Shown here piece by piece: positions 20,205-42,832 of a stretch of DNA of 64,000 nt. Both the position numbers and the translations under genes were made by a program. The notes under the pieces are model-generated. The model ran no database searches. It had not been told where the DNA came from and saw only the letters and a list, made by a program, of their open reading frames with translations. Each line of letters begins with the position of its first letter. The first letter of the stretch is position 1. This stretch comes from Olsenella sp. An188 (GTDB taxonomy: Bacteria > Actinomycetota > Coriobacteriia > Coriobacteriales > Atopobiaceae), in NCBI RefSeq assembly GCF_002160255.1, contig NZ_NFKF01000001.1, positions 186,001-250,000 on the forward strand, given 5' to 3'.

Positions 20205-20248
20205 GGGGGTCCTTTCGACGTGCAAACTTTCGGAATTATACCCAAACA

Positions 20249-33652: not shown

Positions 33653-33879
33653 GCGCTTAAGAAAACCGGGTTGTGGCAATCCGGCACCTGAACGTGCTTA
33701 ACAATCTGGTGTTATGGCAGCGGCGTCAGGGTGCGTGCTTAGAGATTCGGGGTTGTGGCGGCACTGGACTCCCCAAACACCCAGCACTCCCGGCCAAAAG
33801 CGGGCCAAAGACTGCCACGACCCCGGATTTCTAAGCACGAGAAGCGCCGCGATTGCCACAACCCCGTTTCTCTAAGCGC
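33653..33879. repeat. 41-bp-period array: three direct copies facing two inverted copies
   Basis: Plus-strand copies start at 33653, 33694 and 33735; minus-strand copies occupy 33810-33838 and 33851-33879. The step is 41 bases in both arms. Each 28-29-base unit fits GYGCTTA, about six variable bases, CGGGGTTGTGGCA and a short tail. Spacers are 12-13 bases and a 47-base centre separates the arms. The outer pair matches at about 25 of 29 positions. No coding frame is supported. It lies in the leuS-guaB gap. A sixth, partial unit is at 42188-42209. Confidence 0.85.
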
Positions 33880-40965: not shown

Positions 40966-41988
40966 CTATCCCGAGACGCCGAGCCCGGGGCAGATCCTCT
41001 CCCCCACCGCAGTGCGTCCCATAGAGCTTTCCTTCAGTGATTCTAGTACATCAAGCAGGTCTTCCGGCAGGCGGTCGGCAAGCTCTATCGTCTCTCCCGT
41101 GGCCGGGTGGTCGAACCTGATGTGCCAGGAGTGCAGGAACTGGCGAGAAAGGCCGAGGTTCTGGCGCTCGTCCCCGCGCCCGTAGAGCTGGTCTCCCACG
41201 AGCGGGTGGCCGACGTGGCGCATGTGGACGCGGATCTGGTGCGTGCGCCCCGTGTAGAGGTGGCACTCGACGAGCGTGTATCCGTCGTCGCGCCGGCCCG
41301 CCTCAAAGCGCTCGAGCACGCGGAAGGTCGTGATGGCCTCGCGCGCGCCGGGGGAGTCCGAGACGGCCATGCGGATGCGGTCGCGCGTGGAGCGGGCGAT
41401 GCCCGTCTCGATGGTGCCCTCGTCGTGGGCCACGTAGCCGTGCACGAGCGCCACGTAGCGGCGGTCGAGCACGCGCAGGCGGATGAGGTCCTGCAGCGCC
41501 TTCTGGGTGGCGTCGTCCTTGGCGGCCACCATGAGCCCGGTGGTGTCCATGTCCAGCCGGTGCACGATGCCGGGGCGCTCCTCGCCCTGCAGCATGCCGA
41601 GGTGAGCGTAGCCGCAATGCGCCACGAGGGCGTTTGCCAGCGTGTCGTCCACGTGCCCGGGGCTCGGGTGGCAGACGAGGCCCGCCTGCTTGGAGAGCAC
41701 GATGAGGTGCTCGTCCTCGAAGCGGACGTCGAGGTCGATGTAGGGGTTCGGCGCGAGCGGGCCGCCCTGGGGCTGCTCCTCCCCCACGAGCGCGCGCACG
41801 CGGTCGCCCAGCAGCACGCGCTCGGACTTGGAGGTTGCGGGCGTCTCGTTGATGGTGACGGCGCCCTCCTCCACGAGCCGCGCGCACGCCGAGCGGCTCG
41901 GCATGTCGGGGGCGGAGGCGAGAAACGCGTCGAGCCGCATGCCGTCCGACTCCGGCCCCACGAGCAGGTTCACGATGCGGGAGGGCAT
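40966..41988 (-). CDS. rluD: 23S rRNA pseudouridine synthase, RluD family
   Basis: 340 residues. An N-terminal S4 RNA-binding domain (RLDAFLASAPDMPSRSACARLVEEGAVTINE) precedes the catalytic domain with the aspartate in HRLDMDTTGLMV and the family segment YTGRTHQIRVHMRHVGHPLVGD. RluD modifies helix 69 of 23S rRNA; precise target positions are inferred from the family. AAAGGAG precedes the ATG. It follows lspA, as in many bacteria, but a 313-base repeat-rich gap separates them. Confidence 0.92.
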   Translation of the reverse strand: MPSRIVNLLVGPESDGMRLDAFLASAPDMPSRSACARLVEEGAVTINETPATSKSERVLLGDRVRALVGEEQPQGGPLAPNPYIDLDVRFEDEHLIVLSKQAGLVCHPSPGHVDDTLANALVAHCGYAHLGMLQGEERPGIVHRLDMDTTGLMVAAKDDATQKALQDLIRLRVLDRRYVALVHGYVAHDEGTIETGIARSTRDRIRMAVSDSPGAREAITTFRVLERFEAGRRDDGYTLVECHLYTGRTHQIRVHMRHVGHPLVGDQLYGRGDERQNLGLSRQFLHSWHIRFDHPATGETIELADRLPEDLLDVLESLKESSMGRTAVGERICPGLGVSG

Positions 41989-42116: not shown

Positions 42117-42244
42117 CCGCACAATTCCGGAATTGTGCGGCCGGCGTGCGGGCACTTGAGCGCAAAGCACCAGTTGAGGTCCTTCTCGCGCTTAGAAAAG
42201 CGGGGTTGTCCGGGGCGGATTTCGCACAATTCCGAAATTGTGCG
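42117..42244. repeat. two GCACAATTCC palindromes flanking a GGGGTTGT repeat unit
   Basis: 42117-42140 is a perfect 24-bp palindrome (CCGCACAATTCC and its complement). 42223-42244 is a near-perfect 22-bp copy. Between them are CCTTCTCGC (about 42181) and GCGCTTAGAAAAGCGGGGTT (42188-42207), a unit of the 33.65-33.88 kb array. Another motif, GGCGAGAAGGGC, lies at about 42282. The gap from 41989 to 42301 has no supported gene. Confidence 0.8.
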
Positions 42245-42301
42245 GCGAGCTAGAAGGGCGGCTGACGAGCGGGGCGCCGGGCGAGAAGGGCGACGGTCAC
42301 G

Positions 42302-42832
42302 TCAGCTCGCCCGGCGGCCGTCCCCCTCCGCGGCGCGCTCGCGCTCGAGGCGGGAGTCCCAGCGCCACCAGAGCACCACGGCGAGAAGAACCCCGCAGGT
42401 CACGAAGATGTCCGCCACGTTGAAGACCGCAAAGTCGAAGAGCGTGGTGTCGAAGAAGTCGGTCACGGCCCCCGCGGCCACGCGGTCGATGGCGTTGCCG
42501 ACGCCGCCGCCCGCCACGGCGGCGATCGTGAGCGCAAGCGACAGCGGGGCCTCGGGGCGGCGCCACGCAAACCACGCGCCGAAGGCAACCACGGCCGCCG
42601 CGATGGCGACGAAGACGGGGCCCGCCCCCTCGCCGAGCGAGAAGGCGGCACCCGTGTTGTAGACGAGCGTGAGGTCCATGACGCCCGGGACGAGCGTCAC
42701 GGGCTCGCCGGGCGTGAGCGCCGCGCGGGCGGCCGCCTTGCTCAGCTGGTCGAGGGCCACCACCGCGACCAGGACCAGGCCAAACAGGGCGAGCCGCCGC
42801 GCACCGGCGCGCTCTGCGCTCCGAGCCGACAA
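42302..42832 (-). CDS. lspA: lipoprotein signal peptidase
   Basis: 176 residues with four membrane spans. Catalytic aspartates sit in NAIDRV and FNVADIFV, and YNTGAAFSL is conserved. It cleaves prolipoprotein signal peptides. It begins 3 bases after the ileS stop; ileS-lspA linkage is widespread. CCCTTCTCGCC follows directly after its stop codon. Confidence 0.94.
   Translation of the reverse strand: MSARSAERAGARRLALFGLVLVAVVALDQLSKAAARAALTPGEPVTLVPGVMDLTLVYNTGAAFSLGEGAGPVFVAIAAAVVAFGAWFAWRRPEAPLSLALTIAAVAGGGVGNAIDRVAAGAVTDFFDTTLFDFAVFNVADIFVTCGVLLAVVLWWRWDSRLERERAAEGDGRRAS

Follow-up and report, generated by a model that had tools for sequence, protein, structure and literature searches.

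Short repeats between genes are common in bacteria, and their spread is usually inferred from sequence. As described in the cited parts of the respective papers, the BIME-1/RIB elements of enterobacteria consist of two REPs around an IHF site and are located between genes (PMC2817692), and REPs in turn serve as targets for insertion sequences (ISs) of five families (PMC1525189). A GTAG/CGTC tag belongs to the definition of REPs of the REPIN/RAYT type, and some REP dimers elsewhere sit inside palindromes (PMC3733652). Correia elements also carry an IHF site, and Correia/NEMIS and RUP are regarded as bacterial MITEs (PMC2229807, PMC10969869). The sections of the MITE review on size and ends report that members of the QMITE and Chunjie families vary widely in size and that direct repeats wane with time (PMC10969869). 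For IESs of Paramecium shorter than 150 bp, a length period of ~10.2 bp was read as looping in a transpososome-like complex; the cited part of this work also states that repressor loops likewise depend on helical geometry, and refers to helical-twist experiments on bacterial transposons (PMC3464196).

In this study, we analyzed a module of two palindromes located in a stretch of 64,000 nucleotides from Olsenella sp. An188 (in the following, the window), together with its copies in the same genome (G000; 2.14 Mb, 16 contigs, 99.94% complete) and in a comparison of 31 genomes of the genus. The module is a repeated, sharp-ended unit found only between genes, the arms of which are placed at a nearly invariant distance of ten helical turns and the interior of which is variable. 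A description of these repeats was not found in the open-access literature, which is weak evidence, as most subscription journals lie outside it.

Among known systems, BIME-1/RIB are nearest in anatomy and MITEs are nearest in kind. As in BIME-1/RIB, two palindromes flank a short intergenic segment with a presumed protein site; in contrast to them, each arm of the module is a full, near-perfect palindrome, the spacing is fixed near 104 bp, and there is no RAYT in the genome. The module shares with Correia/NEMIS and RUP a length below 200 bp, inverted ends, many intergenic copies, and stable predicted hairpins. The general description of MITEs, which have terminal inverted repeats, a length of <500 bp, and numerous copies between genes, also applies to it (~126 bp, 24 copies, palindromic ends). 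However, neither a TA end nor a target duplication was seen by eye and no partner IS was found in a search that covered Y1_Tnp genome-wide and part of the flanking proteins, and in contrast to MITEs several arm families occur around one kind of core, with lengths locked per family. The lengths of Paramecium IESs likewise follow the helical repeat, which is 10.2 bp there versus 10.34 bp in the sister arrays analyzed below; these IESs are eukaryotic and excised by a domesticated piggyBac transposase, whereas for the modules no excision is known.

Anatomy of the module between rluD and lspA

Direct reading of the window confirmed the matched palindromes that a preliminary description had placed about 105 bp apart at 42117-42244, the start-to-start spacing of P1 and P2 being 105 bp (Table 1). 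Their half-site has six matches in the window compared to 1.46 expected, a number reached by none of 100 shuffles. The unit between the palindromes that had been matched to the array at 33.65 kb was recovered as one of five window matches to the array motif (≤3 mismatches; 0 expected).

Table 1. Coordinates of the analyzed features in the window.
Feature	Position	Strand	Remarks
Whole P-module (palindrome - 85 bp - palindrome)	42117..42245	+	Intergenic, lspA stop side / rluD start side; copy-to-copy similarity ends at palindromes
Left palindrome P1, CCGCACAATTCCGGAATTGTGCGG	42117..42140		Perfect 24-bp palindrome (direct reading); core GCACAATTCCGGAATTGTGC at 42119-42138
Right palindrome P2, CGCACAATTCCGAAATTGTGCG	42223..42244		Near-perfect, symmetry broken by central CCGA; core GCACAATTCCGAAATTGTGC at 42224-42243
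Central core CCAGTTGAGGTCCTTCTCGC	42170..42189	+	CCWG element and genus-wide CTTCTCGC motif; from alignment of 24 modules
Copy of dispersed GGTTCTTCTCGC motif	42178..42189	+	1 mismatch; includes CCTTCTCGC
Array-type unit GCTTAGAAAAGCGGGGTTGTCCG	42190..42212	+	Relative of the 33.65-kb array unit
RluD-type pseudouridine synthase gene (flanking)	40966..41988	-	PF00849 + S4
lspA, signal peptidase II (flanking)	42302..42832	-	PF01252
Element of the second arm family	33655..33877		Units 33655+, 33696+, 33737+, 33814-, 33855-; 41, 41, 77, 41 bp apart

This unit, designated as a sixth one, is one of 54 genome-wide matches (≤2 mismatches). Palindrome and array unit occur together elsewhere in the genome as well, since six of these 54 strong matches lie inside P-modules, at a fixed offset of 68–71 bp from the first palindrome. 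To say that the palindromes flank a repeat unit understates the anatomy, for they seem to serve as arms of an element, with the array units in the same role in a second, related kind. The proposal that three types of repeats work or move together is partly supported, by the co-occurrence elsewhere and by copy-to-copy similarity that stops at the palindromes, but each type also occurs separately: among the 31 genus genomes, CTTCTCGC is present in 31, the array motif (≤3 mismatches) in 10, and the palindrome in 4.

In an alignment of the 24 copies, most share a register of palindrome, ~30 bp, CC(A/T)GTTG, GAGGTTCTTCTCGC, often GCTTAGAnAAnCGGGGTTGTCC, and palindrome, with CCCAGCTCGC as an alternative in a subset of modules. 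The conserved central core between the palindromes is a candidate protein site. Extended core sequences (≤3 mismatches) were detected 12 times, in 1 of the 31 genus genomes only (that of the window), and 11 of the 12 are located inside modules. The GGTTCTTCTCGC motif has 20 matches in the window (≤1 mismatch; e.g. 33545, 34056, 39496) compared to 0.54 expected, and its 14-mer form is present in 31/31 genus genomes. With a slightly different regular expression for GGTTCTTCTCGC, 10 of 24 matches were intergenic, although genes make up 91% of the window.

Distribution and spacing of the palindrome pairs

The genome-wide search revealed the palindrome as a dispersed repeat, mostly in pairs at near-constant spacing. 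With ≤2 mismatches, 46 forward and 44 reverse matches were obtained, and the reversed pattern gave none. In the stretches fetched from this genome, 46 of 49 palindromes (≤5 mismatches; a weak unpaired window match at 20222 is left out of this count) are paired. The spacing of the resulting 24 pairs is 104 bp (19), 103 bp (3), 105 bp (1), or 102 bp (1), i.e. 103–105 bp in 23/24. Pairwise blastn comparison of the 24 modules including 200-bp flanks showed that similarity stops at a median of 3 and 2.5 bases past the palindromes; long tails of similarity in the list mostly represent neighboring or double modules. Because copies cease to be alike at the palindromes, P-84-P constitutes a discrete element that is dispersed in the genome. 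Two double modules (L042:14514-14810 and L044:14560-14855) are alike over 335 bp at otherwise unrelated sites.

None of the 35 places (23 in the genome of the window, 10 in T. mediterraneus, and one each in G020 and G013) overlaps a gene predicted by our own codon script. The many neighboring genes are unrelated, and their arrangement may be tandem, convergent, or divergent. At one place (L045:4333-5463; G000 C11:177332-178462), two P-modules of the same orientation, ~1 kb apart, bracket small genes which resemble a RelB antitoxin and a YafQ toxin fragment.

Beyond its 20-bp core, P1 is extended by copy-specific complementary bases, with a mean run of 3.13 versus 1.76 when partners were shuffled, and P2 in the same way (2.11 versus 1.36 shuffled). 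The outer flanks are also complementary to each other (1.92 versus 1.43 shuffled, p 0.002), while the inner flanks showed no excess of complementarity (1.53 versus 1.54 shuffled). These comparisons (n 38) include a G020 row, L095, which loses its register where the contig ends. This complementarity of the outer arms is similar to the REP dimers inside palindromes mentioned in the cited part of PMC3733652.

Searching the 31 genomes with ≤1 mismatch gave 47 palindromes in the genome of the window, 21 in Thermophilibacter mediterraneus (G008), 2 in G020, 1 in G013, and 0 in the 27 others. The 13 pairs read in T. mediterraneus comprise eight at 104 bp and one each at 103, 105, 100, 114, and 125 bp, so that 10/13 are at 103–105 bp and the exceptions are 100, 114 (+10), and 125 (+21). 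Five intergenic sites, from a total of ten in T. mediterraneus, are common to both species: rluD-lspA, upstream of serC, ybaK-murJ, an XRE gene, and an ABC-permease/PTS pair, where serC, ybaK, murJ, XRE, ABC-permease, and PTS are what we take these genes to be from their protein sequences. With 5 of 10 sites being the same, many copies are old and not recently moved.

At the XRE site, a single 30-bp palindrome is present in G013 and a pair in both An188 and T. mediterraneus; upstream of serC, An188 has one palindrome and T. mediterraneus a pair. Both of these single-palindrome sites can be explained equally well by a deletion between direct repeats and by an ancestral state with one palindrome. 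The interiors at the XRE site have an identity of 0.87 with 0 gaps, and those of the permease site in An188 and G020 0.93 with 0 gaps. Between An188 and T. mediterraneus, the identities at the permease site (0.52) and at ybaK-murJ (0.46) are inside the shuffled range, with lengths equal or differing by 1 bp. At ybaK-murJ (L036:4452, L090:3706), reverse-complement identity is 0.59 versus 0.46 in direct comparison, and the module there may be flipped, i.e. opposite in orientation between the two species. The interior at rluD-lspA comprises 105 bp in T. mediterraneus versus 85 bp in An188. In seven relatives the two genes abut, and others carry different inverted-repeat elements (mostly judged by eye); a clean empty site for the whole P-module, which was sought at rluD-lspA in these relatives, was not among them, and hence there is no simple before/after pair.

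The pair pattern was found in six stretches of genome_contigs, a collection that possibly lacks a record of the genome analyzed here: three belong to T. mediterraneus, one to Ca. Olsenella pullistercoris, and two to Marmoricola and Lentisphaerae, the latter (spacings 116 and 120) being taken for chance. No match was obtained for the module in phages and plasmids or for the palindrome pair in viral_contigs, and a phage, plasmid, or viral origin was rejected on this basis.

In three modules of T. mediterraneus (L089, L094, L105), an IS of ~1.18 kb interrupts the last palindrome; it has inverted ends TGTGGCCCCTAACGAG and two reading frames matching PF12760 and PF12762, i.e. of the IS1595 type. 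An 8-bp repeat, TTCGAAAT, accompanies this IS at two of the three modules; a further copy (C1:922952) is located outside a palindrome and has the 8-bp repeat TATAAAGA. L105 additionally contains a tangled second IS copy, the junction of which has an N. A duplication of the whole palindrome by the IS1595-like element was considered and dropped once the IS ends were correctly placed. The position of this IS inside the module palindrome is similar to the targeting of REPs by IS1397, IS621, and ISKpn1. It differs in that IS1595 is absent from the five REP-targeting families named in the cited part of PMC1525189 and in that another copy lies outside the palindrome.

Arrays with a 41-bp period and related arm families

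The arrays with a 41-bp period seem to represent a second family of arms. In 19 of the 21 array loci read, the 23-bp unit is arranged as '++ ... --'; besides the array at 33655-33877, the genome contains 18 further arrays (L038, L108-L113, L115-L117, L119-L124). The direct spacing is 41 bp, sometimes 42, 44, 52, or 53 bp. The inner spacing from the last plus to the first minus unit in 19 arrays takes values of 56 (5), 66 (2), 67, 77, 88, 97, 118 (4), 119, 128 (2), and 129 bp, forming a ladder with a best period of 10.34 bp (R 0.97; 0/3000 random sets were as good). Array sites were called with a score threshold of our own, and two loci with minus-strand units only (L114, L118) were left out of the ladder. 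As arrays and modules are homologous copies, counts overstate independence and a test on distinct values is safer; for these alone R was 0.95, with 0/3000 random sets as good. Most array centers carry the CTTCTCGC motif, and several have by eye a CCWG core, such as CTACCTGGGGGTTCTTCTCGCC at L122.

Elements with a CCTGCGG-type core were found more widely. In many genus genomes, the core ACCTGCGGATATATG (≤2 mismatches) is more frequent than the reversed pattern; there are 31 versus 1 reversed matches in G049, a member of the same family, but only 2 versus 0 in An188. Inverted arms with a score of at least 10 were present at 31/41 places (40 fetched loci) versus 4/205 shuffles. Seven arm families have locked lengths of 102 bp (6/7; the other 103), 97 bp (5/5), 84 bp (5/6; the other 83), 73 bp (5/5), 77 bp (3/3), 77 bp (6/6), and 78 bp (3/3), with a median interior identity of 0.52–0.90; longer spans of 138, 141, 149, and 152 bp, which are due to additional tandem arms, are not included in these locked lengths. 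The likeness of CCWGTTG in An188 to CCTGCGG or ACCTGCGG in the relatives was judged by eye and position only. In G010 (loci L163 and L196-L199), arms TAACATGCACAGTTCCG contain GCACAGTTCCG, which is close to half of the An188 palindrome, and the latter could be a mirrored arm of the G010 TAACATGCACAGTTCCG kind. With slightly less than even confidence, we propose that the genus Thermophilibacter and its family share a superfamily of elements located between genes, in which inverted-arm families would be interchangeable around one kind of core, DNA twist would fix the length, and a protein machine would synapse the two arms over 70–125 bp.

Possible nature of the element

The constant distance between the arms, together with the drifting sequence and the ladder of one-turn steps, points to something that must hold both arms on one face of the helix, and the spacing of ten turns suggests a need for proteins to clasp the two ends simultaneously. 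The chances seem to us about even that the module represents a MITE/BIME-type miniature element, mobile now or until recently, the ends of which are joined across very short DNA so that twist fixes its length. A DNA-recombining protein would grip both arms at once, and the ~85 bp between them would be looped, probably aided by a protein bending the core. Only lengths placing both arms on the same helix face would work, and thereby helical twist would fix the length of the element; insertion appears to favor palindromic spots between genes. Work on IS50 by Goryshin in 1994 is reportedly a precedent for such effects of helical twist. Dispersal as a sharp-edged unit beside unrelated genes favors mobility, but target duplication and transposase were not found and old sites are shared, which calls for caution. 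By eye, target-site duplications were not seen in the 30-bp flanks of the 24 P-modules and in those of 39 related elements, and a transposase was not recognized in the part of the flanking proteins that was read. A review notes that such direct repeats wane with time (PMC10969869).

Because repressor loops behave likewise, geometry alone does not tell whether the element is mobile or serves as a looping site. The latter would be a fixed site for regulation or chromosome structure, where a dimeric protein bound to both palindromes loops the 84 bp (lac/ara-type), selection keeps the same face, and copies were spread by recombination instead of transposition. The near-perfect dyad symmetry with a free central N4 points to such a site, as do the spacing of 103–105 bp in 10/13 T. 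mediterraneus pairs despite diverged interiors, the five intergenic sites common to both species, and the 41-bp (4-turn) tandem arms of the sister family. Moreover, at the permease and ybaK-murJ sites, where interiors are no more alike than shuffled and the length is the same within 1 bp, ongoing selection would explain the equal length as well as mobility. Nevertheless, we judge a looping site rather unlikely, given the variety of unrelated neighbor genes and of their relative orientations (tandem, convergent, divergent), the palindrome missing from 27/31 genus genomes, and copy-specific complementary arm extensions, which are unexpected for a plain operator. The latter, as complementary change in the arms, would fit an RNA-level element of the REP/BIME kind, with transcribed hairpins at gene 3′ ends acting on mRNA stability or termination and a spacing that reflects descent. 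Several copies begin 18–60 bp past a stop codon, and 8/8 folded stretches (six modules, two on both strands) beat shuffles with z −3.8 to −8.6, although these scores largely restate the presence of palindromes. BIME-1/RIB are located at the 3′ ends of transcription units; of the modules, 11/16 tandem ones, compiled by hand (divergent, convergent, tRNA-adjacent, IS-split, and single-palindrome places left out), are nearer to the stop, which is not significant (Wilcoxon p 0.09), and 3/23 places in the genome are between divergent genes. RNA pairing also gives no reason for a 10.3-bp ladder, and a role of this kind is improbable in our view. At gathering score, Rfam covariance models detected one tRNA only in the window and 0 matches in 12 loci; known RNA families were thus rejected for the module.

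An origin as REPIN-type elements that a RAYT (Y1 tyrosine transposase) mobilizes would agree with the two flanking REP-like palindromes around a spacer, the extragenic location, and the species-limited occurrence. A cognate RAYT is absent, however, as PF01797 (Y1_Tnp) has 0 matches in the genome of the window versus matches in 28/31 genus genomes, among them 25 of the 27 free of the palindrome, and by eye the palindrome ends of the 24 modules have no GTAG or CGTC tag. The absent transposase led us to reject this origin, and we regard it as highly improbable. Even less credit is due to a chance grouping of unrelated dispersed repeats: CTTCTCGC and GCTTAG can each be found in places that lack the palindrome, but the fixed-register arrangement in most of the 24 copies and also in T. 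mediterraneus already refutes it.

For the miniature mobile element with a twist-fixed length, the geometry itself is informative, as the spacing of the arms is held while the sequence drifts and the sister family steps by one turn. This leads to a testable physical prediction, namely that an addition of 5 bp between the arms fails and one of 10 bp works. The spacing rule provides a handle for finding the protein, and in it the length periodicity of Paramecium IESs would have its counterpart in bacteria. If the wider superfamily proposed above is real, the genus and its family would harbor a natural bacterial helical-twist experiment, like that of the Paramecium IESs.
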